From positions 1 to 64,000 of the forward strand of contig JAMOMK010000071.1 in assembly GCA_027067055.1 (NCBI GenBank): 64,000 nt of DNA, read 5' to 3'. This DNA is from Lysobacterales bacterium (GTDB lineage: Bacteria; Pseudomonadota; Gammaproteobacteria; Xanthomonadales; Marinicellaceae). The notes under the pieces were generated by a model, which did not search any database, was not told where the DNA came from, and worked only from the letters and a program-made list of their open reading frames with translations. Both the position numbers and the translations under genes were made by a program. Positions within the stretch are counted from its first letter, which is position 1, and the number at the start of each line of letters is the position of its first letter. Positions 4,428-36,402 of this stretch are shown one piece after another.

Positions 4428-6689
4428 CTATTGTATGGAATATTGGATAGTATCAAGTAAGGCTTGGTTTTGTGCTGTCCAACTTTCGTTATAGACTAGT
4501 TTTGCTTGGTTTAGGACATTTAAGGCTTCTATGTGTTTGCCTAGTTTATTTAATACTCTGGCCTTAATTTCTAAGTAGGGGTTGGCTTGAGGGCTGTATT
4601 GTTCTAGGTTGTTCAATACTTCGAGGGCTTTTTGCGCATCAGTTTTTAAGTATATTTCTGCTAATTGATTTTGTGCATCTGTCAGTGCACTAATATCACC
4701 AATAGAGCGTGCTTTATTCGATGTTTGTTCAATTAACACAATAGCATCTTTATTTCGATTCACTAAATTGTAATAACGAATCAAATAGATGTCCATATAA
4801 ATTTGGTAACGATTAAAACCATATTCTTTGATTAATTTTGCTCGCTCATTCCAGGTGGCTTCAAAGTTTTTAGTGTCTTTTAAAAGCAACAACAATTCCA
4901 TTTCTAAGAAGGCATTGTCTAGTTGCATGGGAATATTTTTTGTGTTTTTAGCAATTTGCAGTTGTAAGTCAATTTTTTGACGTGCAAGCTTCCAATCAAA
5001 GAAATTCATTGCCAATACGGCATCATAATGCAAATAATGCAATCTTAAGTCATCAGAGTCGAGCTCCTCAGCAATATTTTTAATGCGCATATTGACTTGT
5101 TTGGCTTCACTAAAGTTACCACGAATATTTAAAATTGCCACCAATGACCCCAATCCATTAGCAATTTCTTCTTTATCGTTGTCTAACTCCATAATTTGTA
5201 AAGCTTGTTTTTTTAGGCTAATTGCCTTATCCCAGTCATAACTTGATAATGCCATATTCGACAATTCGTTTAGTGCCAGTACTTGTTGATGTATATCACC
5301 TGCAGATTGAGCAAATTGCAAGGACTGCTCAAATAGTTCCAAAACATTTTGGTTATTAGATTGGGCCTGTAAGGCTTTTGCTTGCCCGTAATAACTTTCT
5401 GCGTAGGTACTAGGATTAGTCAGTTTATCAATACCTATTAAAGCTTGTTGATAAAACTTTAGTGCATTCTTAATATCGCCAAGTTTATGATAGGCTTTGG
5501 CAATATACAGCTGTATTTCTGATTTTTTAACGGCATCAATGGATAGCTGGCTAGCAGAAAATTTTTTTAAAGTGTTTATTAGAAAAGAGTATTCCTTATT
5601 GGCATAGTTTATTTTTGCTAAATCTATTTCAATTTCTGTAGCCATAGATGGGTAAGCAGATGTTGCTTTGAGTGTGTTTAATTGGGACTCTGCTTGGTCA
5701 TATTCTTTTTTATCTATTAATGTTTCAGCTAATGATAGTCTTGCTTGGTGGTGATTTTCTTGTCGGCTTAATATTTCAATTAATAATGCTTTTGCAGTAT
5801 CTAAGTCTCCTGATTGCTTATTGCCAATTGCTTCAATGTATTTTTTAGTTAGTGAGTAGTTGTTGCCTTTAGCATTATCAATGCTTGTAGAAGCTTGGTT
5901 ATAAGATGAGATATAGGAAATTTGCTTCTGAAGTAAGTGGCTTATTGAGTCCGCTTTTAGTATGGTCTTTTGCAGTGGTTTTGCGCCTTTGGTTAAGTTA
6001 ATAACCGCCTCATAGATTTCTCCATTTCTAATGACATTAGTACTGATGACAGTTAGTTCTTTGTTTTGTTGCCAATGCTTTTCTATGGCTTGTTGAGCAT
6101 TTTCACTGATTTCGTCAAATACAATTTTATCATGAGAGTCACTATTATTGATACTTGATTTAAGCACTTCATTCATGCCAATTTGTTGCACTTGGTTTAT
6201 AGATAAATCTTTGAATTTTGTGGGTAGAATTAAAAACAATTGGTTTAATTTGGCACTGTTATCTATAGGGCTTTCTTTTATTGGTTTAACCGGTTTACTA
6301 AAAAAATGGTTACTCAAAAAGAGTATTAATATCAATGAAAAACCGAATGCTCCGTATTTGATAAAAGGGTTTGTTTTTTTATCAGTAATATGAATTGTTG
6401 ACTCAAAACTTACACCTTTACCAAAGTGTGTAATTATAATTTCTGGCTTTGTGGGCTTTTGCTCTAGAATATTACGCAGTGCCAGAATAATTTGATCAAC
6501 GGAATTATCAGAGACAACTCTTCCCCATACATCATCCATTAATGTTTGTTTTGAAAGGACTGTGTTGGGATTTTGAATTAAATAATTAAGGAGTTTGTTT
6601 TGAATATTAGACAACTCTATTTCTACGGCTTTTTTAAAAACAACTCCATTGGTGCTGTCATAAGAAAAATTATCTAATTGATATAACAT
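4428..6689 (-). CDS. CadC-like membrane transcriptional regulator with TPR sensor
   Basis: A one-component regulator of 753 residues from the chosen start. Residues about 1-98 form an OmpR/PhoB-type winged helix (VEIELSNIQNKLLNYLIQNP, VLSKQTLMDDVWG, SDNSVDQIILALRNIL, ITHFGKGVSF). A single membrane helix follows at about 112-130, then a periplasmic region whose C-terminal two thirds are helical tetratricopeptide repeats. An in-frame ATG at 6743 adds 18 hydrophobic residues before the DNA-binding domain; I prefer the ATG at 6689 because it starts exactly at the domain. Neither start has a clear Shine-Dalgarno. It is divergent from the secreted-protein cluster, and 11-bp-phased TAAGAA repeats lie in the shared gap, so it probably controls that cluster and itself. 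Confidence 0.85.
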   Translation of the reverse strand: MLYQLDNFSYDSTNGVVFKKAVEIELSNIQNKLLNYLIQNPNTVLSKQTLMDDVWGRVVSDNSVDQIILALRNILEQKPTKPEIIITHFGKGVSFESTIHITDKKTNPFIKYGAFGFSLILILFLSNHFFSKPVKPIKESPIDNSAKLNQLFLILPTKFKDLSINQVQQIGMNEVLKSSINNSDSHDKIVFDEISENAQQAIEKHWQQNKELTVISTNVIRNGEIYEAVINLTKGAKPLQKTILKADSISHLLQKQISYISSYNQASTSIDNAKGNNYSLTKKYIEAIGNKQSGDLDTAKALLIEILSRQENHHQARLSLAETLIDKKEYDQAESQLNTLKATSAYPSMATEIEIDLAKINYANKEYSFLINTLKKFSASQLSIDAVKKSEIQLYIAKAYHKLGDIKNALKFYQQALIGIDKLTNPSTYAESYYGQAKALQAQSNNQNVLELFEQSLQFAQSAGDIHQQVLALNELSNMALSSYDWDKAISLKKQALQIMELDNDKEEIANGLGSLVAILNIRGNFSEAKQVNMRIKNIAEELDSDDLRLHYLHYDAVLAMNFFDWKLARQKIDLQLQIAKNTKNIPMQLDNAFLEMELLLLLKDTKNFEATWNERAKLIKEYGFNRYQIYMDIYLIRYYNLVNRNKDAIVLIEQTSNKARSIGDISALTDAQNQLAEIYLKTDAQKALEVLNNLEQYSPQANPYLEIKARVLNKLGKHIEALNVLNQAKLVYNESWTAQNQALLDTIQYSIQ

Positions 6690-6824
6690 AGTGCAAATAG
6701 CCAAACTTCTAAAAATGATTGCAAATAATACCGTAAAAAGCATTAAGATAAAATCAATTATTGAAAACTCTTTTAAATTTCAATCAAGCTGTATTTTCTA
6801 TATTACTACCCTTTAAGTCCACCA

Positions 6825-6852
6825 TAAGAACTTTTTAAGAACTTTCTAATAA
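6825..6852. promoter_or_regulatory. 11-bp-phased TAAGAA direct repeats (candidate operator, site 1)
   Basis: TAAGAA occurs at 6825 and 6836, and a TAATAA variant at 6847, each exactly 11 bp apart. The site is between the CadC-like regulator gene and the first secreted-protein gene. OmpR/PhoB-type winged helices bind head-to-tail on direct repeats one helical turn apart, so this is a natural target for the adjacent regulator. The same array recurs at 8558-8585. Confidence 0.6.
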
Positions 6853-6938
6853 AATAATAATAATTTATTCAGGGTTTAGAATTTTATTTTTCATATACTT
6901 AAATTTCCAAATCACGATATGAATCAGGAGAAAATTAG

Positions 6939-7229
6939 ATGATATATCAATTTAAAAAAAGCAATATTTATAACTTTATATTGCTGGTAATTACTGTGAT
7001 GACAGTGACTGCTACTTATGGTCAGTTTGAAATAAAGAAACACACTGTAAATAGCGGTGGAACGACAATGATGGCTGGTTCTATTGTCATGCATTCAAGT
7101 ATCGGTCAAGTCGATGCTAGCAATCAGTTAACTAGTGACTCTTTTGTAATAAAAGGAGGGTTCTGGCAAACCAACAGCACAACTAGTTCAACCGATATAA
7201 TTTTTACAAACAGTTTCGAAAATTTATAA
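6939..7229 (+). CDS. Small exported protein with C-terminal IFxxxFE tail
   Basis: A 96-residue protein with a signal peptide (hydrophobic 11-26, cleavage probably after YG, about residue 28) and a good ribosome site (AGGAG 12 bp upstream). The mature part has the pattern found in exported Lysobacterales proteins: GGTTMMAGSIVMHSSIGQVDAS then SFVIKGGFWQTN. After a serine/threonine linker it ends TDIIFTNSFENL, the same tail seen on several other secreted proteins in this window. Function unknown. It is first in the cluster downstream of the TAAGAA site, 30 bp before the next gene, so probably in one operon with it. Confidence 0.75.
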   Translation: MIYQFKKSNIYNFILLVITVMTVTATYGQFEIKKHTVNSGGTTMMAGSIVMHSSIGQVDASNQLTSDSFVIKGGFWQTNSTTSSTDIIFTNSFENL

Positions 7230-7259
7230 CTCAATATCAAAAAACAAAGGGGATAAACC

Positions 7260-8297
7260 ATGAAAAAAAATATAATATTAGTAATTTTAATGACAGTTAT
7301 TTTATCAATAAATAATGCGTGTGCTGCGCCAGTAGGTAGCAGTTTTTCCTATCAGGGTCAATTATTAGACAACAATAATCTTGCCAATGGCAACTATGAT
7401 ATCATTATCGAAGCCTATAGTACAAAAGTTGGCAATGGTAACTTAGGGGTGTCTCAAACTTTTAATGCAGTAACAGTTTCTGAAGGCATATTTAACATTC
7501 CACAAGTTGACTTTGGAGATGCCATTTATACAGGTGATGAAATATGGCTAAATATTCAGGTTAGGAAAACAGGTAATCCAACCTATATCACCTTGTCACC
7601 CAGGCAACGTTTAAATGCCGTACCCTATGCAGTACAGACTGAATTTTTGGCGCCCAATGGTGCCAACACCAATGATTTTTTACAGTTTGATGGCAGTAAT
7701 TGGGTGGGGGGAGCTTTAAATATTCCAATGCCATGGGATGTTAATGGATCAGATATTTCGTATTCTGCTGGTAAGGTAGGTATTGGTACTGGAGCATCAG
7801 CTATAACAAGCACTCTAGAAATTAAAGGTGAATCAGGAGTTGATCCCTTTCGTATTCAAAACAGCACGACCGGGATAGGTTTAGATTTTAGAGTGGCTCA
7901 AAATGGAGGAGTTGCAATTGGTCCCTTTACGCCTAACCCTCCGCTTTCAGGGTTGCAAGTCCAAGGAAATGTCAGGCAAGGACTTAATACCAATGGGATA
8001 ATAAAATATATGGTTGATGCATTTTGTGATCCTACTCCAACTATTCATAAGTTCTACAATGGTGTCGATAATGGCATTGGAGCTGTAACAATTGATTATA
8101 TTAGTACAGGGAGATGTAAACTAGTTTTTCCCTTTAGTCTAAATGATAGATATTATCAAGTATCTTCCTCAGGTTCGGGCCCAGGAGTAGACAGTCGAGG
8201 GGTTTCTTGTACTAATGTTTTTGATGCTTTATATTGTAAAAGATACAATGGTGTTGGGACAGCAGTAAACGGCAGAATGATGATTCTTATCTATTAA
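7260..8297 (+). CDS. Exported protein with tail-fibre-like domains
   Basis: A 345-residue protein with a signal peptide (cleavage after CAA, about residue 22). Residues about 28-125 match a common extracellular module: FSYQGQLLD, GNYDIIIEAY, then LSPRQRLNAVPYA. The centre (WDVNGSDISYSAGKVGIGTG) resembles phage tail-fibre and trimeric adhesin stalk repeats. The C-terminal about 100 residues contain four cysteines, probably disulfide-linked, and form a separate domain. It does not end in the FE tail of its neighbours. AAAGGGG lies upstream of the ATG. It is likely a surface-exposed binding protein; phage origin is unlikely because no phage genes are near. Confidence 0.7.
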   Translation: MKKNIILVILMTVILSINNACAAPVGSSFSYQGQLLDNNNLANGNYDIIIEAYSTKVGNGNLGVSQTFNAVTVSEGIFNIPQVDFGDAIYTGDEIWLNIQVRKTGNPTYITLSPRQRLNAVPYAVQTEFLAPNGANTNDFLQFDGSNWVGGALNIPMPWDVNGSDISYSAGKVGIGTGASAITSTLEIKGESGVDPFRIQNSTTGIGLDFRVAQNGGVAIGPFTPNPPLSGLQVQGNVRQGLNTNGIIKYMVDAFCDPTPTIHKFYNGVDNGIGAVTIDYISTGRCKLVFPFSLNDRYYQVSSSGSGPGVDSRGVSCTNVFDALYCKRYNGVGTAVNGRMMILIY

Positions 8298-8321
8298 CTA
8301 CAATTGAATAGAAATAGATTG

Positions 8322-8361
8322 CTGGATGGACTTAAGTTAGGCTTGATTGTAGACCATCCAG
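8322..8361. terminator. Hairpin downstream of the two-gene exported unit
   Basis: CTGGATGG at 8322-8329 pairs with CCATCCAG at 8354-8361 around a 24-base loop. There is no U-run, so it is a weak terminator at best. It lies 25 bp after the stop codon of the preceding gene. The rest of the 353-bp gap to the next start (8298-8650) is AT-rich and otherwise holds only the TAAGAA array. Confidence 0.35.
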
Positions 8362-8557
8362 TTGTATGGTTGTGAAACTTAGAATTCTTTGTGGTGTATA
8401 TATTATTAACTTTAAAATACTCCAACTCTTCTCAAGAGGAAAGCTTTAAGTTTTTGTTCTTAAAAGTTTTCTCACTTTTGGCGGTCTTAGTTAAACAGTT
8501 TTAAGTTATTTCACCTATATAAATATCTCAGTACTTTTTTTGTTAACACTACCCAAA

Positions 8558-8585
8558 TAAGAACTTTATAAGAAACAAATAAGAA
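8558..8585. promoter_or_regulatory. 11-bp-phased TAAGAA direct repeats (candidate operator, site 2)
   Basis: TAAGAA occurs three times at exactly 11-bp spacing (8558, 8569, 8580), in front of the first FG-GAP gene. The first two units share the longer form TAAGAACTTT with site 1 at 6825. This is the pattern expected for tandem binding of an OmpR/PhoB-type domain such as that of the CadC-like regulator. A weaker minus-strand match lies near 8457-8473. Confidence 0.6.
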
Positions 8586-8650
8586 ATATTTCAGATTTGA
8601 AAAATCAGTTTTCTTTACAATTAATCAAAATTAATTACGAGTCCGAACAT

Positions 8651-10213
8651 ATGAAAAATATCAGGAAAAAATTTGTGGTTTATATTGCTTTACTGTCAAT
8701 ACCATTTGTTAATCAATCGATACAAGCCAAACAACCGAATTCTGTTGCTGAATTTATTAATCAAATTTCATCAATAACTGCTAAAGCAATAATACAAGAA
8801 GCCTATATTAAGGCTTCAAATACTGGTGGCGGTGATCGGTTTGGATTTTCGGTCGCATTGTCTGGAAATACTTTGATAGTTGGAGCCTCTAGCGAAGACA
8901 GTAATTCAACGGGGATAAATAATGATGGCGATAATAATCTTGCCTTTGGTTCGGGAGCTGTTTATGTGTTTGTTCGGGAAAATGGTCTCTGGTCGCAACA
9001 AGCCTATATAAAGGCATCCAATGCACAATTCGGGGATCAGTTTGGTGTGTCTGTAGATATTTCTGGTGATACGATTGTGGTTGGAGCTAGGTTTGAAGAC
9101 AGTGCAGGTGTTGGTGTTAATGCTGATGAAAGTAATAATTCTGCTGCTAATTCAGGAGCTGCTTATGTGTTTCATCGTGTTGGTACTATCTGGAGTCAAC
9201 AAGCGTATCTAAAAGCCTCCAATACCGACTTGGGTGATGAGTTTGGTGAGTCTGTAGCTATTAGTAATAATACCATTGTTGTGGGTTCACCAAAAGAATC
9301 AAGCAATGCGACAGAAATTAATGGTGATGACTCTGATAATTCGTCAGTTAGGTCGGGAGCTAGTTATATTTTTACCAGATCAGGTTCTGTCTGGAGTCAA
9401 CAAGCGTATTTAAAAGCATCCAACGCCCAAGCCAGTGACTCGTTTGGTACAGCTGTGAGCATTTCAAACGATACAGTGGCAGTAGGAGCTATTGATGAAG
9501 ACAGCAGTGCAATAAATATTAATGGTGATGAAACTGATAACACTGCAAGTAAATCTGGAGCTACTTATGTATTTGTTCGTGATGCTTTTGATGAGTGGTC
9601 TCAGCAAGCATATATCAAAGCTCATAATACGGATAGTGATGATCAATTTGGATTTTCGCTAGCCATAGACGATGATATTTTAGTGGTTGGAGCTAACTTT
9701 GAGAGCAGTAATGAAACAGGAGTAAATGCACCGGGTAACGATAATTCTGCGTTAAATGCAGGCAGTGCTTATGTGTATTCACGCATAGGTGTTACTTGGG
9801 GTTTTGATGCATATTTAAAAGCATCGAATACCGATGCCGGTGATGAATTTGGTTTAAGTGTCGATATTTCGGGTAATCAAATTGTAGTAGGAGCTTATGT
9901 TGAAAGTAGCGCTTCTAATGGTGTGGATGGAGATCAATCGAATAATAACGCATTGCTTTCAGGTGCAGGTTATTTATTTAAATTTGATGGAACTCAATGG
10001 CAGCAAGAATCCTATCTCAAAGCATTCAATACAGATAGCGGTGATCTTTTTGGTTATGATGTTGCCATCTCAGGGGACTCAATTATCATAGGTGCACAAG
10101 GTGAATCTGGTAGTGCAACAGGCATCAATCCAATCGATGATAATTTAGCAGGTGGTTCGGGCGCCGTGTATGTGTATATAGATGATTCAATATTTGCTGA
10201 TGATTTTGAATAG
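8651..10213 (+). CDS. Secreted FG-GAP seven-repeat (propeller) protein, first copy
   Basis: Starting at the ATG at 8651 gives 520 residues and a standard signal peptide (MKNIRKKF then a hydrophobic core, cleavage after IQA). A TTG at 8597 in the same frame would put 18 polar residues before it and is unlikely. The mature protein is seven repeats of about 67 residues with the pattern QAYIKASN-x(4)-D-x-FG-x-SVAISG-x-TIVVGA, then SGAAYVF-x-R-x(4)-W. Seven FG-GAP blades predict one complete seven-bladed beta-propeller, the integrin-alpha-like fold, with Asp-rich loops (for example NGDDSDN) likely to bind calcium. It ends DDSIFADDFE, the shared tail. Expected role: cell-surface or secreted binding protein. 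Confidence 0.85.
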   Translation: MKNIRKKFVVYIALLSIPFVNQSIQAKQPNSVAEFINQISSITAKAIIQEAYIKASNTGGGDRFGFSVALSGNTLIVGASSEDSNSTGINNDGDNNLAFGSGAVYVFVRENGLWSQQAYIKASNAQFGDQFGVSVDISGDTIVVGARFEDSAGVGVNADESNNSAANSGAAYVFHRVGTIWSQQAYLKASNTDLGDEFGESVAISNNTIVVGSPKESSNATEINGDDSDNSSVRSGASYIFTRSGSVWSQQAYLKASNAQASDSFGTAVSISNDTVAVGAIDEDSSAININGDETDNTASKSGATYVFVRDAFDEWSQQAYIKAHNTDSDDQFGFSLAIDDDILVVGANFESSNETGVNAPGNDNSALNAGSAYVYSRIGVTWGFDAYLKASNTDAGDEFGLSVDISGNQIVVGAYVESSASNGVDGDQSNNNALLSGAGYLFKFDGTQWQQESYLKAFNTDSGDLFGYDVAISGDSIIIGAQGESGSATGINPIDDNLAGGSGAVYVYIDDSIFADDFE

Positions 10214-10233: not shown

Positions 10234-13200
10234 ATGATGTTAGCTAAAAAGTACAAAAGTATATCAAGCGTTTATTTACTGATGCTCATGATTAGTTTTT
10301 CTGTTTTTGCAGGGAATCTACAGTTGCACAATGGTGGATTGCCTCAAGGAGTATTACAGGCAGAATGGCAAGCCATTCAAACGCAAATTAAACAATATCA
10401 ACAAAATCAAAAATCAGTAACAAATGTTACCCAACAGACCTATGTGAAAGCCTCAAACACAGGCGGTGACACTTTTGGTTTCTCTGTTGCTCTATATGGC
10501 GACACGCTAGTCGTAGGTGCACCTGATGAGTCTAGTAGTGCTACAGGAGTTAATGGAAATCAAATCGATAATTCCGCTATGCGTTCAGGTGCGGTCTATG
10601 TCTTTACTCGGGATTCTGGAGTCTGGAATCAGCAGGCTTATCTTAAAGCTTCAAATACTGGAGCCAATGACTTTTTTGGGCATACAGTGGCTATCTCTGG
10701 TGATACTATTGTCGTTGGAGCCATTGGTGAGTCTAGTAATGCAACAGGCGTTAATGGTGATGAATTTGATAATTCAGCAGATTCAGCTGGCTCTGCTTAT
10801 GTTTTTGTTCGCAATGCAGGAGTGTGGAGTCAACAAGCGTACTTAAAGGCATCAAATACCAATGCAAATGATAGGTTTGGCAGTGCTGTGGCTATATCAG
10901 TTGATACAATAGTCATTGGTGCTAGCAATGAAAGTAATACGGAATTTGGATCAGGTGCAACCTATATTTTTAGTCGATCTGTTAATACATGGTCACAACA
11001 AGCTTATCTCAAATCAACAGATAATATTGGATTTACAAATTTGGATCATTTTGGGGACAAGGTTGCTATTTTTGGTGATACGGTAGTGATTGGAGCACCA
11101 TTTGATAGTAGCAATGCAACAGGCGTTAATGGAGATCAGAATAATAATTTAGCGGTCAATTCTGGTTCTGCCTATATTTTTGTAAATACCGCAGGGTCTT
11201 GGAATCAACAAGCCTATCTTAAATCCTCAAATAGTGAAGCAGACGATCAGTTTGGTTCATCTGTATCAATTGATGGCGATACAATAGTCATTGGCGCAAT
11301 AAGAGAAGACAGTGTTGCCACAGGTGTCAATGGAGATCAAAGTAACAACTCTGCCAATGCATCAGGAGCAGTATATGTGTTTGTACGAAATACAGGTATC
11401 TGGAGTCAACAAGCCTATCTTAAAGCATCCAATCCAGATACCAATAATTTATTTGGTGACCAGTTTGGAACTTCTGTGTCAATTGATGGCGATAGTATTG
11501 TGGTTGGAGCACGATGGGAAGAAAGTAATGCAATAGGAATTGATGGAGATGGCTCAGACAATTCTATCAGGGCCTCAGGTGCTGCCTATTCATTTGTTCG
11601 CCAAGGCAATAATTGGGTGCCTGAAGCTTATATTAAAGCCTCAAATACGCAACAAACTGGCGATGGAGATTGGTTCGGTACTTCTGTAGCCATGTCAGGT
11701 CAAACCCTTGTAATTGGTGCGCCGTGGGAAGACAGTAATGCAACTGGAATTAATGGTGATGAAAGTAACGAAGACATCATTCAAGCAGGTGCAGTTTATG
11801 TCTATACACAATCTAGTGGACTTAACTTTAGTGTGGGTGGTAGTGTTTCGGGTTTAGCATCCGGAAACAGTGTGACTTTACAAAACAATTTTGGTGATGA
11901 TTTAATCATTTCAGCAGATGGAAACTTTACTTTTGGTCTATTATTGGCAGATGCATCAGACTATTTAATAACCGTCTCACAACAACCAACAACTCCCAAT
12001 CAGGTCTGCGCTCTTAGCAATGAATCGGGCACTATTGCCGGTGCTAATATCATTAATGTAATGGTTGTGTGCACGACAAATACCTATACAATTGGTGGAA
12101 CCATTGTTGGGTTGGCTTCTGGCAACGATGTCATTTTACAAAATAATGGAAGTGATGATTTACTTGTTAGTAGCAATGGAGATTTTATATTTTCTACAGC
12201 AATTGATGATGGAAGCAACTATAATGTGACCGCATTAACTCAACCAACAACTCCCAATCAGGTCTGTACCCTTAGCAATGAATCTGGTACTATTGCCGGT
12301 GCTAACATCATTAATGTAATGGTTGTGTGCACGACAAACTCCTATACAATTGGTGGAACCATTGTTGGGTTGGCTCCTGACAACGATGTCATTTTACAAA
12401 ATAATGGAAGTGATGATTTACTTGTTAGTAGCAATGGAGATTTTATATTTTCTACAGCAATTGATGATGGAAGCAACTATAATGTGACTGCATTAACTCA
12501 ACCAACCACACCTAGTCAAACATGCCAAATTAATAATGGACAAGGAATGTTATTAGGGGCAGATATTATTTCAATTATTATTGTTTGTACTAATGACCCT
12601 CTTTATAGTATTGGCGGAAGTTTATCAGGGCTTATCTCTGGAGATAGTTTGCTACTGCAAAATAATGGAAGTGATGATTTACTTGTTGTTAACAATGGTA
12701 TCTTTACCTTTGATACTGAATTGTTAGATGGTTCAGCATATGAGGTTACCATTGAAGCACAACCAACTTCGCCTGAATTGATATGCAGTATAAGCAATGG
12801 CAATGGCAATATTTCTATGGCCAATATTACCGATGTAGAAATTACTTGCCTTACTGTGCAATTAACCCTTAGTCCTGATACCGTTGATTTTGGGGTAGTT
12901 GACTTTAGAACAAACCAAACCCAAACACTTAACATAACAAATACAGGAACAGGAACAGTGACATTGCCATCTTTTGTTGACCCTGCACCACCTTTTTATG
13001 TTGTCGGTGGAACATGTAACAATAATCCATTAGTCCTGATTCCATCTGAAACATGCAGTCTAAACATTGAATTTAGAGGTGATGAAATAGGCAGTTTTAC
13101 TGCTCAGATGCAAGTGATTAGTAATGCCAGTTCAAGCCCCGATAATGTTAATCTAAGTGCTACTGTCTTGGTGCCTGTGATACCAGTGATGAATGTATTT

Positions 13201-13257
13201 GGTTTATTGTTGTTGGCTATATTAGTGCAGTTGTTGGGTTGGAGGTATAAAGCATGA
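10234..13257 (+). CDS. Large secreted FG-GAP propeller protein with Cys repeats, choice-of-anchor-D-like domain and IPTL-like anchor
   Basis: A 1007-residue protein; an ATG at 10237 (six bases after AGGAG) may be the true start. After a signal peptide (ends VFAG) come seven FG-GAP blades (about residues 68-528), the third lacking its Asn-rich loop. Four repeats of about 86 residues follow (about 530-873), each with YTIGG-x-x-x-GLASG, LQNNGSDDL and two cysteines; repeats 2 and 3 are nearly identical. Next is a choice-of-anchor-D/ASPM-like immunoglobulin domain (about 875-980: DFGVVDF, LNITNTGTG, C-SLNIEF). The C-terminus is IPVMNVFG, a hydrophobic helix and a basic end, like IPTL-type sorting signals, so it is probably membrane- or surface-anchored. 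It lies 20 bp after copy one and overlaps copy three by four bases: one operon. Confidence 0.85.
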   Translation: MMLAKKYKSISSVYLLMLMISFSVFAGNLQLHNGGLPQGVLQAEWQAIQTQIKQYQQNQKSVTNVTQQTYVKASNTGGDTFGFSVALYGDTLVVGAPDESSSATGVNGNQIDNSAMRSGAVYVFTRDSGVWNQQAYLKASNTGANDFFGHTVAISGDTIVVGAIGESSNATGVNGDEFDNSADSAGSAYVFVRNAGVWSQQAYLKASNTNANDRFGSAVAISVDTIVIGASNESNTEFGSGATYIFSRSVNTWSQQAYLKSTDNIGFTNLDHFGDKVAIFGDTVVIGAPFDSSNATGVNGDQNNNLAVNSGSAYIFVNTAGSWNQQAYLKSSNSEADDQFGSSVSIDGDTIVIGAIREDSVATGVNGDQSNNSANASGAVYVFVRNTGIWSQQAYLKASNPDTNNLFGDQFGTSVSIDGDSIVVGARWEESNAIGIDGDGSDNSIRASGAAYSFVRQGNNWVPEAYIKASNTQQTGDGDWFGTSVAMSGQTLVIGAPWEDSNATGINGDESNEDIIQAGAVYVYTQSSGLNFSVGGSVSGLASGNSVTLQNNFGDDLIISADGNFTFGLLLADASDYLITVSQQPTTPNQVCALSNESGTIAGANIINVMVVCTTNTYTIGGTIVGLASGNDVILQNNGSDDLLVSSNGDFIFSTAIDDGSNYNVTALTQPTTPNQVCTLSNESGTIAGANIINVMVVCTTNSYTIGGTIVGLAPDNDVILQNNGSDDLLVSSNGDFIFSTAIDDGSNYNVTALTQPTTPSQTCQINNGQGMLLGADIISIIIVCTNDPLYSIGGSLSGLISGDSLLLQNNGSDDLLVVNNGIFTFDTELLDGSAYEVTIEAQPTSPELICSISNGNGNISMANITDVEITCLTVQLTLSPDTVDFGVVDFRTNQTQTLNITNTGTGTVTLPSFVDPAPPFYVVGGTCNNNPLVLIPSETCSLNIEFRGDEIGSFTAQMQVISNASSSPDNVNLSATVLVPVIPVMNVFGLLLLAILVQLLGWRYKA
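11983..12498 (+). repeat. Recent 258-bp tandem duplication inside the FG-GAP/Cys-repeat gene
   Basis: Bases 11983-12240 and 12241-12498 are two in-frame copies of a 258-bp unit (86 codons). By eye I count about 11 differences, roughly 96% identity. The repeats on either side are much more diverged. This indicates a recent unequal exchange or slippage that lengthened the stalk-like part of the protein by one module without breaking the frame. Confidence 0.85.
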
Positions 13258-14885
13258 AACTTAAAAATATTCTATTTCTGGGCAGTAGATTAGTAAAACT
13301 TGTTGTTATTGTATTGATTTGTTGTCAGGCTTCATTGGCAAAAAATTTGCATGCACAAACAAGTAAAGTTAACATCCCAAACTCAGGTGGTGAATTGCCT
13401 CAAGGTGTTTCGCAGATAGAATGGCAAGCCATTCTATCTCAAATAAAAGTATCGCAACAAGTACAAACCTCAACAGTAAATCTATCTCAACAAGCCTATG
13501 TTAAGTCATCAAATACCCAAGCTGGATTTAGGTTTGGATATTCGGTTGCAATATCAGGACATACCATGGTAGTGGGTGCTCGTTTTGAAGATGAGCCACT
13601 TGCTGCCAGGGCAGGAGCGGTCTATGTTTTTGTTCGAAGGCAAGGAGTTTGGAGTCAACAAGCCCGATTGGTGGCCTCTAATGTTGATGAAAATGACTGG
13701 TTTGGTCTCTCTGTGGCCATATATGGAAACACCCTTGTGATTGGAGCCCCATTCGAGGACAGTAATGCCAGAGAAGTTAATGGAGATCAAAGTGATAATT
13801 CTAAACATAACTCAGGAGCGGCTTATGTTTTTGTTAGGAGCAATAGTATTTGGCAGCAACAAGCCTATATCAAATCAACCAATACAGATGCGGATGACAA
13901 CTTTGGAATATCTGTTGCAATTAATGAAGATACAATTATTATTGGTGCGCCATTAGAAGACAGTAATGCAACTGGTAGTAATGGCAACCAAGCTGATAAT
14001 TCAGCTATGAACTCAGGAGCTGCCTATATTTATCAGAGGTTTAACCCTGATCTGTGGGTTAATAAAGGCTATATCAAAGCTTCAAATTCAGAAGCATTAG
14101 ATAGGTTTGGTAGAGCGGTTGATATTACTGAAGACCTTTTTGTTGTGGGTGCTGAACATGAGTCTAGTAATGCAACAGGAGTGAATGGGGATCAAAATAA
14201 TAATCTAAAACCTGGGTCAGGGGCGGCCTATGTATTTAGCAATGCCTCTGGTAGCTGGTTACAGCAAGCTTATCTCAAGGCTTCAAATTCTAATAATAAT
14301 GACAGGTTTGGTTTGTCTGTAGCCATTTCAAATTTGACCACAGTTGTTGGCGCATCAGGTGAAGATAATAGTGCTACAGGAATTAATGGTAATGAGACAC
14401 TCTGCTGTGATTATGGATCTGGAGCTGCTTATGTTTTCACCAAAGATATTGTGAATAATTTATGGAGCCAAGAAGCCTATATGAAAGCATCCAACACTGG
14501 AGGAGGGGATTTTTTTGGTGAGACAGTTGCCATTGATCGCAATACAATTGTTGTTGGTGCAGTGGGAGAAAAAAGTAATGCAACGGGTGTCAACGGCAAC
14601 CAATTTGATGACTCCAGTCCCAATTCAGGTGCAGTTTACACATTTACCCGAGCTTCTTCAGTTTGGAGTCAGCAGGCGTATATCAAAGCTTCAAATTCAG
14701 AAACATTAGATGTTTTTGGTTCTTCAATTGCAATTTCTAACGATACAATTTTGGTTGGGGTTTCTCAAGAAGACAGTAATGCAACAGGAATTAACGGCAA
14801 CGAAAATAATAATTCTGCCGATGAAGCCGGGGCGGCTTATGTATTTAACACAGACCTGCTTTTTGGAGATGGTTTTGAAGAATAG
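13254..14885 (+). CDS. Secreted FG-GAP seven-repeat (propeller) protein, third copy
   Basis: A 543-residue protein whose ATG overlaps the stop of the previous gene (ATGA), so it is probably translationally coupled. It has a signal peptide (hydrophobic about 17-30), a spacer SGGELPQGVSQIEWQAI that copy two also has, and seven FG-GAP blades of about 67 residues from about residue 80. The first blade lacks most of its Asn/Asp loop. Blade five has an unusual LCCDYG in place of the usual Asp/Asn loop. It ends NTDLLFGDGFEE, the shared tail. Copies one and three carry the FE tail while copy two carries a membrane-anchor tail. Function unknown; extracellular binding or adhesion is the best guess. Confidence 0.85.
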   Translation: MKLKNILFLGSRLVKLVVIVLICCQASLAKNLHAQTSKVNIPNSGGELPQGVSQIEWQAILSQIKVSQQVQTSTVNLSQQAYVKSSNTQAGFRFGYSVAISGHTMVVGARFEDEPLAARAGAVYVFVRRQGVWSQQARLVASNVDENDWFGLSVAIYGNTLVIGAPFEDSNAREVNGDQSDNSKHNSGAAYVFVRSNSIWQQQAYIKSTNTDADDNFGISVAINEDTIIIGAPLEDSNATGSNGNQADNSAMNSGAAYIYQRFNPDLWVNKGYIKASNSEALDRFGRAVDITEDLFVVGAEHESSNATGVNGDQNNNLKPGSGAAYVFSNASGSWLQQAYLKASNSNNNDRFGLSVAISNLTTVVGASGEDNSATGINGNETLCCDYGSGAAYVFTKDIVNNLWSQEAYMKASNTGGGDFFGETVAIDRNTIVVGAVGEKSNATGVNGNQFDDSSPNSGAVYTFTRASSVWSQQAYIKASNSETLDVFGSSIAISNDTILVGVSQEDSNATGINGNENNNSADEAGAAYVFNTDLLFGDGFEE

Positions 14886-23854: not shown

Positions 23855-26326
23855 TTACTCAAAGTCCGATTTAAATATCAAGCCCTCCTCAATAAACTCA
23901 GTAATTACCCCTAGACCACTAACATTGGTGTTTGCAGCTTTCTGCATCGTGCTAGTTTTTTGCTGAGTTGGTGGCTGTTGAGTTTGCTCTAAAAGAAACA
24001 AAGAACCAGCATTTAGTGTATTAGTTGCTCTATCATAGGTTTCTGCATCGGCAACAGTAACTGCGCCACCATTGGATAATGCATTTAGAAATTCGGCAGC
24101 AGTAATCAACTCCATGCTTGTATTATAAAATGCGGCATTATTTAAGTTACCAATATTGACTCCCATCACTTCTAATTGGCCACTTGTTACGTTCGTAACA
24201 TTAGCGCTAATATAGAAAGTTGTTCTTCCATTTGGAGTTGTTTGTATTGTAAAAGGATAAACAAGCGATGCCCATATATTACCATCACTGTCTTCGTAAC
24301 CAGAAAACATAACACCGTCATTTCCAGCCAAGCCATTGATAAATAAACCACTTGGGTCTACGGTCAACTCATTTTGATTAACTTCAATTCCCATAACTGT
24401 AACCTTACCGTTAGATGCGTCTGCATCACTTAGTGTAATATCAGTGGCAAGAATTGGTGCTTGAGCAGATACAAGTTTAACGGGTAAAACAACACTTGAT
24501 GCATCGACCTCATTTGTTTGGGGGTTAACAAGACCCTCTACCTGAACTTGAACTCCAATCATTAAACTATCGATAGTTCCACCAACTATTTGAGTATCCC
24601 ATAATAGGTTGACAACTATATCCCCTACAATCATCTGTGTTTTATCTGCTGATATTTCATTAATGAAATCTGAAAAGAAAACATTCAAAGGCGGGCTTAT
24701 TTGCGAAAAGAAAACAGCCATAGCATCAACTTCATTGGCATCATTTATTACGCCATTGATATCAACATAAGTACCTACTATTAAGTCTGCTTGTGTTCCT
24801 TCAAAATAAACCGTTTCGGCAGTAGCATTTACAATTGAACCATCATCTAGTGTTATTTGTGTTTGATCTGCATTTACTTCTGTAATAGTACCAGAAACAT
24901 AGACATGTGGAATAGGATCAACAATGCCGTTTGATAATAAACTTGCCATTAAGGCTTGACTAACTGGGTTTCTATCGCCCTGGACAGTGACTTCTTGCCC
25001 TTCGCTTAATTCATCAAGAGTTGTACCAACAAACATTGTTGTACTTGACAATTCAATTGCTTCGTTGCCAATAGTAAAGTTTAAGTGGTCTATACTTAGG
25101 TTGCTTATTGCACCTGAAACACTAACAACATTTTGATTTGGAGGCAACTCTAGTACAAAGCTTATTTGCATAGCCATTAAAGCATCTGTTGTCTGAGCAC
25201 CGCTTTGTACTATGGCTTCAACCCATGCACCATCTATAAGGTTTGCAACAGTGCCTGCTACAAACAAAGTATCTGCATTATAAGAAACAACCATTCCATC
25301 AAGTTCAAAATCAGTCGCAGTTACATTAGTTACTGCGCCATTAATAATAAAAGGTTGGTGCGGAGGCATTGCTGGCTCATCATTTATATATACGTAGTAA
25401 GCAATTGTTTCATTGGTATCAGGGTCTTCATAGCCATTAACACTAACATTCATTCCTTCTTCTAAAGTAGTGTTGCCTGTATTTGAAAATATTTCCGTAT
25501 CTTCATTTATAGTAACAGAAGTACCGCCTACTACAATATTAGTTTGACCAGCATTAACTGACTCAATTAAGCCATTGATAAATACAGGAGCTGGAGGATC
25601 ACTCGGAAATGTAAAGTCATCATAACAAGTCACGGTTGCTGCATCGACCGCATCTCCTGTAGTATAATCAGCAACTGGCAGTACCTCTGCAATGACTTTT
25701 TCTCCATTTTCAAAAGTGCCAGCATCACAAACGACATTACCTTGGGTGCTGGTGAAATTTAAGTGTTGTGTTCCAATATTAAAACCTAACTCATTAAGGT
25801 TAAGAACGTCTCCTGTGATTAACCAATAAGATGAACCATTATGCAAAACCTCTATACGTGTTGCGCTAATAACTCCTGTGTCGGATTCAACCCCACTTAC
25901 AGCTACAATTGAACCCACTATAATGTCTTCAATATTTGCAGCACCTACAATTATCGTATCAGCATCAACAACCAAGTCAACCAACAAAATCTGAAGAGAG
26001 CCTGTGCTATTTGCCGTAACAGGTCCAATAACAGAGTTAATTAAATTAATCTCACTTAGCTCACCAGCATTTTGGTTTGCCCCAGCAGAATAGTTAACAT
26101 TTGCCTTAAAGCCAGGTAGTGTTTGTGATAAAAAGCCAGTACCGTATTGTTCGGCTCCTTGTATTTTTGGAACCGTATGACCATCTATTTTTAATACTGT
26201 ATTATTTTTAATATTTAAATTGCGTAAATTATCAATTACGATTGTATTTGCCGCATGCGAAGATGCATAAATACTTAACGTAAATAAAACTGTACACAAA
26301 AATTGTATAAATTTATTCTTTTTCAT
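23855..26326 (-). CDS. Secreted DUF5666 repeat protein with C-terminal IFxxxFE tail
   Basis: An 823-residue exported protein (signal peptide with core IQFLCTVLFTLSIYASSHA). The mature part is a string of about 70-residue DUF5666-type beta modules; each has a strand start like VSGAISNL, a middle ELDGMVVSYNADTLF-type segment, an L-x-x-GxxVEV-x-G turn and a final A-x-x-V/I-x-F strand. The extreme C-terminus is EEGLIFKSDFE, the same tail as the FG-GAP and subtilase proteins. Its ATG overlaps the stop of the DUF6502 gene (ATGA), so the two are translationally coupled. Function unknown. Confidence 0.8.
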   Translation of the reverse strand: MKKNKFIQFLCTVLFTLSIYASSHAANTIVIDNLRNLNIKNNTVLKIDGHTVPKIQGAEQYGTGFLSQTLPGFKANVNYSAGANQNAGELSEINLINSVIGPVTANSTGSLQILLVDLVVDADTIIVGAANIEDIIVGSIVAVSGVESDTGVISATRIEVLHNGSSYWLITGDVLNLNELGFNIGTQHLNFTSTQGNVVCDAGTFENGEKVIAEVLPVADYTTGDAVDAATVTCYDDFTFPSDPPAPVFINGLIESVNAGQTNIVVGGTSVTINEDTEIFSNTGNTTLEEGMNVSVNGYEDPDTNETIAYYVYINDEPAMPPHQPFIINGAVTNVTATDFELDGMVVSYNADTLFVAGTVANLIDGAWVEAIVQSGAQTTDALMAMQISFVLELPPNQNVVSVSGAISNLSIDHLNFTIGNEAIELSSTTMFVGTTLDELSEGQEVTVQGDRNPVSQALMASLLSNGIVDPIPHVYVSGTITEVNADQTQITLDDGSIVNATAETVYFEGTQADLIVGTYVDINGVINDANEVDAMAVFFSQISPPLNVFFSDFINEISADKTQMIVGDIVVNLLWDTQIVGGTIDSLMIGVQVQVEGLVNPQTNEVDASSVVLPVKLVSAQAPILATDITLSDADASNGKVTVMGIEVNQNELTVDPSGLFINGLAGNDGVMFSGYEDSDGNIWASLVYPFTIQTTPNGRTTFYISANVTNVTSGQLEVMGVNIGNLNNAAFYNTSMELITAAEFLNALSNGGAVTVADAETYDRATNTLNAGSLFLLEQTQQPPTQQKTSTMQKAANTNVSGLGVITEFIEEGLIFKSDFE

Positions 26327-32943: not shown

Positions 32944-35900
32944 TTAATTCTCAAAACTATTAACAAAGATATATTCAGTGCTGTACAAAGAACACGCTTG
33001 TGGTACTTCTATATTATTATAACTGAGTTCATCGACATAAAAACCTTCTTCTTCTGAACCTGGATCGGTTGATAAGCTCCATCTGATTTTAACAGTTTGC
33101 CCTTGATAGGCAGTTAAATCATGAGTAACTAGTTGGAATGCCCCAGCAGTATTACCATTAAATGCACCGTGAGAGGCTGCATAACCACAAATATTGATGG
33201 GTGGAGCGCCTGTCATATTAAAGTCGCCTGGATAACCACCCACAGGTGGTAAATCGGTCCAGCTTGCACCACCATTAGTGGAGATTTCAACGACAACTCC
33301 ATCCCAGTCCGCTTCAATGTTATAACGCGATTGATAGCTAATACTTGGTGGAGAAGCTGGTGTTGCAGGTATAGAAAAGGTTGTTGAATGCATACGTGCA
33401 CAGGTATTAGATGTGTAATTTGTACTGCCTTCTAATGCAGAGCGGTAACTCAATAGACCATTGGATGCTTGATCAGTACTTCGTGACCAAATAGAGTTCA
33501 AATCCATTAGCGTTAAGTTATCGACATCATCAACTATTGTTCCTTCTATTGTTGTGGTACCAAGGGAAGTTGATGCCACTTCTTTTATCTCAACAGATTC
33601 ATTGCCACTGTTTGGCCCTGCTCCTGCTGTTGTTGTGTCCTCAGCTTTAACTATGTAATAGTAGGGTTGACCAGATACTGTTGTCGTGTCACTGAAGTTT
33701 GTCGCGTTAGCTCCTGTTGTTGCCAATAAGTTTCCGGCATTTGGGGTGAAATTATGTGCTGTTGAACGATAAATATTATATTTCACATTAGTTGCGGCAG
33801 GACAACTGCTGGTTGCAGCATCCCAAGTTAGTCCTATTTGACAGAAGTCATTGAGATTATTGGCTACTTTTACTGTGTCATTATTAAATGTCGGTGGTAG
33901 CAAGCACACTTGTTCTGAAACAACGTCAATACAGTTGGTGTAAGCGCTAATCAAGTCATCAGAAAACGCCCTAACCTTATAACTGTATTGGTAACCACCC
34001 ACTGTGGAAGTATCAGTAAAAGCATTGCTATTTGATTGTCCAACAAAGCGCATGGTTGTTTGATCTGATGCTGCACATGTGCCTTGTAAACGGTATATTT
34101 CATAATTATCATAATCAGCAGAAACATCGCTCCAAGCTAAATCAATGCCACTCAAGCCATTACTGGTTGCGGTTAATGCGCTTGGGTCTGTTGGGCTAGG
34201 TGGAACAGCACCACCTGAGGCTAAATTACCGGATACTACAAGAGCAAAGCCTTGTTTATCTGAGTTAAATGTTCCGTTCCCAGGAATGTTGCTGGCATCG
34301 ACCATAATAGTGTAAGTGCCAGCTGTCGGTGTTGCAAACCTTACCTGTTCAACCGTATTGACAACATCCGCTGATCCACCAGTTACCGAATTGTTGGTTG
34401 TGAAGTTATTGGCAAGAAATGTATTTGCACCAATGTTAACAGACAAATCAAGGTTATTTACCAGTGTTACAGCAGATCCTATCGGCCCAGCCAAATCATA
34501 CCATACTAAGGTTGCTCTAAATTCTTCACCTGGTTGAACGCCAATATCAACAGAAAACTGTTGACCTGTTGTTAAACCAAAGTTGTTAGGCACTTCCCAA
34601 AATCGAAATCTTCGTGCTTCACCTGCAAAATATAAAGAATTCTCAAGCCACACACGACCCCAGCCTATATCATTAGTAAAAAAGCCTCCATCTGTTTTTG
34701 TTCCATTGAGCAACAATGCTTTCATTAATGGTCCGCTTGGCGTATGTGAATCTAGTGCTATTTTGGTTCCAGAAGGATAAAATCCATCGGTAAAGTACTG
34801 GCGTAATAATGCCGTAGAACCTGCTGTTATCGGTGTAGCCATTGATGTTCCTGTTTTTGTGGATCTTATTGGTACTTCAATTGTACTGCTGTTATTTGTA
34901 TCTCCGGCAGCTGACTGAATAAAGGTGCCTGTTGCAGAAACATCAGGTTTTAACCTTCCATCATCCGTTGGGCCTCGACTTGAAGACGCTCGCATTGTTG
35001 TACTATTACCATGTTGCAGGTTTCCAATTGATGTCACATTTTTAGCAGTAGCAGGAGAGCCAACGGTGTTTGCCGAAGGTCCAGAATTTCCGGCTGCAAA
35101 TAAAATAATCATATCTTCTAGTTCATGTAGAGATTCATCTGCTCTTAAAGATGAACCACTGTAAGTTCCTCCATCATCAGAACCATAACTATTGGAATGG
35201 ATTTTAGCACCAGCTTCATTGGCTTGTTTCCACATTGGAGAAGATCCTGCGCCAGATAGAGAGACTTGACCACCACTAAGGCCTCCGCCAATGTCTTGGA
35301 AAAGTATCTGTGCATTGGGAGCCATACCGTCATCGTCATCATAACCACTTGATGAAGGATTAGAAACGTTACCACCTGCACCACCACCAATATTTGACTC
35401 TCTATCGCCCACAACAGAGCCCGAAACATGGGTTCCGTGGAAAGAGCCTATGTCGTAATCCAGTGCACCAGGCATAGTCCAATATGCAATCACCTTATTG
35501 TTGGGATGCATAGTTCCCATAATAGGTGGGTTTGTTGCTTCGGCATCTGTTATGGCTGTGACCACACCACTCCCTTTATCTAAGTGCACAAACCAATCTT
35601 CATTTCTATCCAAACCAGAATCAGTTACACCAATAATTTGCCCTGTTCCATAAAGACCCTGATCAAAAATTGGAGTCGTCACAGGGACGCTTGTGGCTTG
35701 AGTTGCCGAAACAGCTTCATTATTAAAAAAGTGTTGAGCTGAATATTGAGTTACCCATTGAACTTCTTCAAACTTTGCAAGCTTATTAATTACAAAGTCA
35801 ACTTCATTGCTATCAACTTCTATAGCATATTGATGATAACCATTTGGAATATTGGTCTTAATCACTTTAACATTTGTAAAATATTTTTTAACTAATGCAT

Positions 35901-36402
35901 TCAACTTGAAACCTTTGACATCCTTAAAAGTACGAAGGGACAAAGAGTAGTTACTTTGAGAAGAGCGATTTGATGTCCATAAACCGGGAGAAACTTTATA
36001 GCCCGATTGAAAAGCGCCAAACCAACGGATGGATGGATTGTCACTTAATTTATTTTTATTTTGGTTTGACCAATTAACAAGAAAGGCATTGTTAGGTAAA
36101 TTTGATATAACGACAAATCCATTTTTATCTAACCATTTAAAGTCTGTTTTCTTGTCATAAAATTGAACAATGCCATACCTGTTAGAACTAGTACTGTTAA
36201 TGTTAGTGCCAGCAAAATCTAACTCTTGAATACTTGGGTCAAATATCCCCGTTGCCAATATCAATTTATTGCTATCAGCAAGGGCTAGTTTTATGGTGGT
36301 AGGTGATTGAGCTTGTGCTTTTATCTTATCAGCGAAAGAAGCAGAAGATGCCAGCAATAAACTTAAGCCTGCACATTTTAAAAAATTGGTGGTATATTTC
36401 AT
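32944..36402 (-). CDS. Secreted subtilisin-like serine protease (S8) with C-terminal IFxxxFE tail
   Basis: A 1152-residue secreted protease. Signal peptide to about residue 24 (SFADK), then a propeptide-like region to about 235. The catalytic triad is Asp261 (VTDSGLD), His322 (FHGTHVSG) and Ser520 (KTGTSMATP), with oxyanion Asn439 (AAGNSG). A jelly-roll-like domain follows, then two fibronectin-III-like modules (around 740-930) and a C-terminal lectin-like domain with cysteine pairs. It ends STEYIFVNSFEN, the same tail as other secreted proteins here. It probably digests extracellular protein or surface partners. It is alone on its strand apart from the exported gene at 36634. Confidence 0.9.
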   Translation of the reverse strand: MKYTTNFLKCAGLSLLLASSASFADKIKAQAQSPTTIKLALADSNKLILATGIFDPSIQELDFAGTNINSTSSNRYGIVQFYDKKTDFKWLDKNGFVVISNLPNNAFLVNWSNQNKNKLSDNPSIRWFGAFQSGYKVSPGLWTSNRSSQSNYSLSLRTFKDVKGFKLNALVKKYFTNVKVIKTNIPNGYHQYAIEVDSNEVDFVINKLAKFEEVQWVTQYSAQHFFNNEAVSATQATSVPVTTPIFDQGLYGTGQIIGVTDSGLDRNEDWFVHLDKGSGVVTAITDAEATNPPIMGTMHPNNKVIAYWTMPGALDYDIGSFHGTHVSGSVVGDRESNIGGGAGGNVSNPSSSGYDDDDGMAPNAQILFQDIGGGLSGGQVSLSGAGSSPMWKQANEAGAKIHSNSYGSDDGGTYSGSSLRADESLHELEDMIILFAAGNSGPSANTVGSPATAKNVTSIGNLQHGNSTTMRASSSRGPTDDGRLKPDVSATGTFIQSAAGDTNNSSTIEVPIRSTKTGTSMATPITAGSTALLRQYFTDGFYPSGTKIALDSHTPSGPLMKALLLNGTKTDGGFFTNDIGWGRVWLENSLYFAGEARRFRFWEVPNNFGLTTGQQFSVDIGVQPGEEFRATLVWYDLAGPIGSAVTLVNNLDLSVNIGANTFLANNFTTNNSVTGGSADVVNTVEQVRFATPTAGTYTIMVDASNIPGNGTFNSDKQGFALVVSGNLASGGAVPPSPTDPSALTATSNGLSGIDLAWSDVSADYDNYEIYRLQGTCAASDQTTMRFVGQSNSNAFTDTSTVGGYQYSYKVRAFSDDLISAYTNCIDVVSEQVCLLPPTFNNDTVKVANNLNDFCQIGLTWDAATSSCPAATNVKYNIYRSTAHNFTPNAGNLLATTGANATNFSDTTTVSGQPYYYIVKAEDTTTAGAGPNSGNESVEIKEVASTSLGTTTIEGTIVDDVDNLTLMDLNSIWSRSTDQASNGLLSYRSALEGSTNYTSNTCARMHSTTFSIPATPASPPSISYQSRYNIEADWDGVVVEISTNGGASWTDLPPVGGYPGDFNMTGAPPINICGYAASHGAFNGNTAGAFQLVTHDLTAYQGQTVKIRWSLSTDPGSEEEGFYVDELSYNNIEVPQACSLYSTEYIFVNSFEN

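Follow-up and report, generated by a model that had tools for sequence, protein, structure and literature searches.

We identified two arrays of 11-bp direct repeats in a 64,000-nucleotide stretch of DNA from a Lysobacterales bacterium of the Marinicellaceae (contig JAMOMK010000071.1; hereafter the window). Judging from sequence comparisons, these arrays are most probably the operators of activator-dependent promoters that are controlled by a divergently encoded transmembrane winged-helix regulator and drive two units of secreted-protein genes. One array lies beside the divergent regulator gene and before a pair of exported genes, and the other lies before an operon of FG-GAP genes, which is the placement given in the original prediction. 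The TAAGAA repeats described there could all be confirmed on the forward strand in 11-bp steps, at 6825 and 6836 (with TAATAA at 6847) and at 8558, 8569 and 8580, as could a sequence common to both arrays, TAAGAACTTT.

When the repeats are read in register, both arrays become longer. Array 1 (6814..6879, + strand) comprises six in-phase 11-bp TMA units, namely TAAGTCCACCA at 6814, TAAGAACTTTT at 6825, TAAGAACTTTC at 6836, TAATAAAATAA at 6847, TAATAATTTAT at 6858 and TCAGGGTTTAG at 6869. Array 2 (8558..8601, + strand) comprises four units, TAAGAACTTTA at 8558, TAAGAAACAAA at 8569, TAAGAAATATT at 8580 and TCAGATTTGAA at 8591. The final unit, at 6869 and 8591, respectively, switches from TAA to TCAG in both arrays. 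Dinucleotide shuffles, which were made separately for each intergenic region, gave a run of six TMA units at 11 bp once in 20000 for region 1. At least three TMA units ending in G, with TANNNT at +25, arose in 9 of 20000 shuffles for region 1 and 6 of 20000 for region 2. For periods of 9, 10, 12 and 13 bp, runs in this test did not exceed three units.

Putative -10 hexamers were placed by anchored alignment at TATACT (6894..6899, + strand) and TACAAT (8616..8621, + strand), in arrays 1 and 2, respectively; counted from the T of the final unit, each begins exactly 25 bp downstream. In 18 aligned array promoters, for which the alignment anchors were chosen after the arrays had been inspected, the best -10 position was +25 in 15 cases and 24 or 26 in three. 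The last 11-bp unit stops 14 bp before the -10 element in 15/18 of these promoters. TAGAAT at 6877 was dropped as a candidate -10 element of array 1, since the array runs on to TCAG at 6869 and TATACT then stands at +25. The spacing of the -10 element varies by no more than 1 bp, which suggests that RNA polymerase is contacted. Visual inspection of the 18 promoters revealed no evident TTGACA-like -35 hexamer, so that they look activator-dependent. We infer activation because the spacing is fixed and no -35 hexamer is evident, and we infer physical binding of the regulator to the arrays from the comparisons of sequence described below.

The pattern (TCA-N8)2-TCAG-N21-TANNNT was found 65 times in 33 genomes of the family, versus two matches for the reversed control; outside the family, 118 genomes of the order yielded 15 matches versus none. 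In a control set of 33 genomes (21 from this family), in which the unshifted pattern had approximately 45 matches, moving the -10 element by -4 or +4 bp left 5 and 2 matches, respectively, and a period-10 version had zero. A period of 12 was rejected as a control because 12 is a multiple of 3; the sequences of the 19 matches listed look like coding repeats. Within the window's own genome, a TMA version of the pattern had 13 matches versus 2 in the control. These include array 1 (C71:6814 and C71:6847) and array 2 (C71:8569), and, beyond the window, three promoters behind the regulator at C102 and two at C10. The three C102 promoters (L209, G000:C102:9900-20089) are near-identical arrays of TAATAACTTCT TAATAACTTCC TAAGAWTTCAA directly downstream of the regulator paralogue, and each precedes a gene for a large secreted protein, the first of which contains DUF285 repeats. 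We also observed promoter-like TCATAAAAAAATCAT-N7-TCAGGA sequences in the same register in other families of the order (L168, L169, L173 and L174), and three array-like elements within approximately 1.1 kb in another genome of the family (L097).

The regulator gene (4428..6689, - strand) encodes a protein of 753 aa. All close homologues start with MxYQ..NFSYD, and its start was therefore corrected from 6743 to 6689 (MLYQLDNFSYD). The longer reading matches Trans_reg_C (PF00486) at residues 41-110 with 58.2 bits against a cut-off of 26.2, TPR families were also matched in Pfam, and PDB profile matches of the N-terminus include PhoB, OmpR, KdpE, WalR, CadC and ToxR. The AlphaFold2 model (mean pLDDT 85) consists of a winged helix (residues 1-102), a helix (110-130), an alpha/beta domain (150-246) and a TPR superhelix (282-752). 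By its Trans_reg_C match, its PDB profiles and its predicted fold, the regulator is an OmpR/PhoB-type winged-helix DNA-binding protein. Its helix at residues 110-130 is hydrophobic in both the sequence and the model, in which local confidence is low, and would fit a membrane span. Pfam gave no Response_reg match for a receiver domain, and the winged helix begins at residue 1; there was likewise no Pfam match to a BTA domain after the winged helix. A fold search with the full model returned mostly generic TPR proteins. In an alignment-based search, the closest relatives in named records were from metagenome-assembled genomes, mostly of Lysobacterales and one labelled uncultured Marinicella, and a single-protein search of genome contigs with the regulator returned no match. 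The window also encodes a membrane regulator with a LytTR domain (1394-2167), and a few genes separate it from the array regulator.

Regulator paralogues with 41-43% identity occur in the same genome at C55 (two), C102 and C10, others being more distant, and sister genomes contain both orthologues and paralogues. An 11-bp array adjoins most of the close homologues. Upstream of the regulator at 18 close-family loci, period 11 had a mean z of 2.48, and periods 7-10 and 12-22 were not enriched (z -0.26 to 0.55). The unit varies with regulator clade (TCACTAAAAAT, GTCAGCAAATG, CTCATAACTTT, TCATAACTTCA, TAATAACTTCY, TCAGAACTTTT and TAAGAACTTTT). Distances between units were correlated with distances between recognition helices (Mantel r 0.63, p 2e-4), also when TPR-domain distance was controlled (partial Mantel r 0.56, p 2e-4), these statistics being not fully free of shared ancestry, which inflates them. 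Pairs with near-identical recognition helices had a unit distance of 0.11, versus 0.36. The regulator orthologue at L055, which is 48% identical, is accompanied by two copies of TCAGAACTTTT before a homologous gene pair, and this unit differs from TAAGAACTTTT by one base per unit. For the homologues at L054, L055, L063, L072a and L073, the gene's own 5' intergenic region contains no array; at L054, L055 and L063, the array instead precedes a neighbouring gene.

Both paralogues and orthologues of the regulator adjoin signal-peptide genes preceded by 11-bp arrays. A comparison of orthologous loci had been put forward with the original prediction, and in this comparison arrays and secreted targets recur beside regulator relatives, which supports the proposed control of surface proteins by a membrane TPR regulator. 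The idea that an OmpR/PhoB-type domain binds head-to-tail on repeats one turn apart is similarly favoured by the period-11 arrays and by the way in which the unit tracks the recognition helix.

Array 1 is followed by genes for a small secreted protein of 96 aa ending in IIFTNSFENL (6939..7229, + strand) and a secreted protein of 345 aa of the FSYQGQL type (7260..8297, + strand). Homologues of the 96-aa protein stand behind arrays in L132, L055, L198 and L199; the FSYQGQL protein has a paralogue behind an array (L132:7681-8730) and a homologue in L055. The gene pair also follows arrays at C10:21327 of the window's own genome and at L055. The first gene behind array 2 encodes a secreted FG-GAP_2 protein of 520 aa with seven repeats (8651..10213, + strand; Pfam PF14312, E 1e-78). 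It is followed by genes for a secreted FG-GAP_2/choice-of-anchor-D protein of 1007 aa (10234..13257, + strand; Pfam, and NCBIfam NF012200) and a secreted FG-GAP_2 protein of 543 aa ending in LLFGDGFEE (13254..14885, + strand; PF14312, E 1e-81). FG-GAP proteins are found elsewhere behind an array of the TCAGAACTTTT type (L196), and TAAGAACAATA units precede the gene for a protein of 1481 aa that contains 14 FG-GAP repeats (L054). The recurrence of like targets behind window-type units favours a conserved two-unit regulon, in keeping with the original prediction.

A signal-peptide-like ORF lies behind 44/55 distinct TCA-array promoters, compared with 14/48 ORFs of the window under the same rule; this stricter rule was adopted after a first hydropathy rule failed to discriminate (24/48 window ORFs). 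The target ATG is mostly 58-70 bp after the anchor T, and target domains include FG-GAP_2, DUF285, cadherin-like and Big_9 repeats. We also observed a C-terminal motif of approximately [ILV]F-x-x-x-FE that is common to the secreted proteins encoded at 6939-7229, 8651-10213, 13254-14885, 23855-26326 and 32944-36402. The tails seen in the window are IFADDFE, LFGDGFEE, LIFKSDFE, YIFVNSFEN and IIFTNSFENL, and many array targets in other genomes have like tails (..FNNGFE, ..FKDGFE). No NCBIfam model matched this tail, which could serve as a so far undescribed tag for sorting or anchoring.

Two further array promoters with TAAGAACTTTA/TCAGAAAGTTA units occur approximately 2 kb apart at C10:19341 and C10:21327 (L132:5374 and L132:7349), with no adjoining regulator, so that the rule of adjacency is not absolute. 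The same double arrangement was found in L198 and L199, which points to control in trans. These arrays may belong to the window regulator, since that at C10:19341 begins with TAAGAACTTTA, or to one of its paralogues.

Tandem repeats could arise by chance in AT-rich intergenic DNA and have no function, and some counts agree with this explanation. The loose pattern TAAGAA-N5-TAAGAA, with two mismatches allowed, does not exceed chance expectation in the window (17 observed vs. 15.7 expected), and the exact form has 4 matches in the 3.42-Mb genome vs. 4 for the reversed control. The loose pattern being at chance in the window, the signal is carried by the exact form and the promoter register. Moreover, the genome scan did not reveal TAAGAA arrays scattered at random and unlinked to secreted genes: three of the four exact matches are the window arrays themselves, and the fourth (C88:58129) is a chance match on the antisense strand of a LysM/M23 (NlpD-like) coding sequence. 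The promoter register, the recurrence in sister genomes, the specificity of the period and the shuffle tests make a chance origin extremely improbable.

Which protein binds the arrays, and to what effect, are separate matters. The arrays could be operators of another member of the OmpR/PhoB family, either a phospho-dependent response regulator or another winged-helix/TPR paralogue, with the neighbouring gene linked to them by position only. There are 19 Trans_reg_C matches in the genome, several of them response-regulator-like in size (230-254 aa), the GTCAG-type units of some clades resemble the PhoB half-site TGTCA, and the arrays at C10:19341 and C10:21327 have no neighbouring regulator. 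We nevertheless regard this explanation as unlikely, because the arrays recur beside members of this single regulator family, and their type follows regulator clade and tracks the recognition helix after control for TPR-domain distance. It is also conceivable that the regulator, once bound to the arrays, blocks the -35 region and acts as a repressor until a signal relieves it; the last unit does overlap the -35 position, and some proteins of the ToxR family both repress and activate (PMC11358694). The lack of an evident TTGACA-like hexamer in the 18 promoters and the polymerase contact suggested by the +25 spacing argue against repression, which we consider quite unlikely.

In the activation model that we favour, the regulator would be a one-component transmembrane activator in which an N-terminal cytoplasmic winged helix is joined through a single membrane helix to a large, presumably periplasmic TPR domain that responds to an envelope signal. 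Each 11-bp unit (TAAGAACTTTN) would receive one winged helix, and the bound copies would line up head-to-tail along a single face of the DNA, such that a multimer occupies three to six units. The last unit (TCAG-N7) would span approximately -37 to -27, in place of a -35 box, from which the bound multimer would pass RNA polymerase on to the -10 element at +25. The regulator would thereby switch on the 96-aa protein and its FSYQGQL partner from array 1 and the three FG-GAP proteins from array 2, and every paralogue in the genome would be matched with a unit variant and adjacent surface-protein genes of its own.

Seven or more different units stand next to regulators of the same fold, several of them inside one genome. 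One possibility, which we put forward tentatively and rate at somewhat below even, is that Marinicellaceae-like bacteria are expanding a set of insulated regulator/operator pairs, in which duplicated activators of winged-helix, membrane-helix and TPR architecture have private 11-bp unit codes, one invariant geometry and one surface-protein cassette each. If this is true, envelope signals would determine which of the surface coats a cell displays. For surface proteins of uncultured marine bacteria, our findings predict a regulator, an operator, a promoter and a regulon, and sensing by TPR-based membrane one-component systems becomes directly testable. The paralogous pairs are also a natural data set in which recognition residues and operator change together while promoter geometry stays fixed.

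Every ingredient of this system has a precedent, and it is therefore not a new kind of system; by analogy, its mechanism would be known in kind, as the tandem winged-helix binding of PhoB, TcpP and SARP-like proteins. HilA of Salmonella has an OmpR-type DNA-binding domain, a TPR region and an 11-bp direct-repeat box like the present system, but is soluble and controls a secretion island. PhoB and the Pho box share the winged-helix fold, the 11-bp head-to-tail direct repeats, an operator that replaces the -35 box and, in most clades of the present system, TCA-containing units. In contrast to PhoB, no receiver domain was found in the regulator described here, which has a putative membrane helix and TPRs instead, and its arrays have three to six units that are altered by clade to TAAGAACTTT, TCACTAAAA, TCATAACTT and others. 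The operators of PhoB and TcpP are TGTCA-N6-TGTCA and TGTAA-N6-TGTAA, respectively (PMC11358694), and that of ToxR is TNAAA-N5-TNAAA (PMC8517210). ToxR, CadC, TcpP and MarT, the last of which controls the adhesin gene misL (PMC11358694), resemble the present regulator in the N-terminal winged helix and the direct-repeat operators and, on its predicted topology, would also resemble it in having a membrane helix followed by a presumed periplasmic sensor. They differ from it in that its presumed sensor is an alpha/beta domain with approximately 470 residues of TPRs, its arrays have multiple units and there are several paralogous regulator/array pairs per genome. SARPs such as AfsR also combine an OmpR-type DNA-binding domain with two 11-bp direct repeats, the upstream one over the -35 region, and some large SARPs contain TPRs; in SARPs, 8 bp separate the 3' repeat from the -10 element (PMC10936776), whereas the last unit here ends 14 bp from it. 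The present regulator, in which no BTA domain was found, further differs from SARPs in its predicted membrane anchor and in belonging to a different phylum. A literature search found no description of this system of membrane TPR regulators and 11-bp arrays, the new features of which are the long arrays, the fixed promoter geometry and the diversified regulator/operator pairs for surface proteins.
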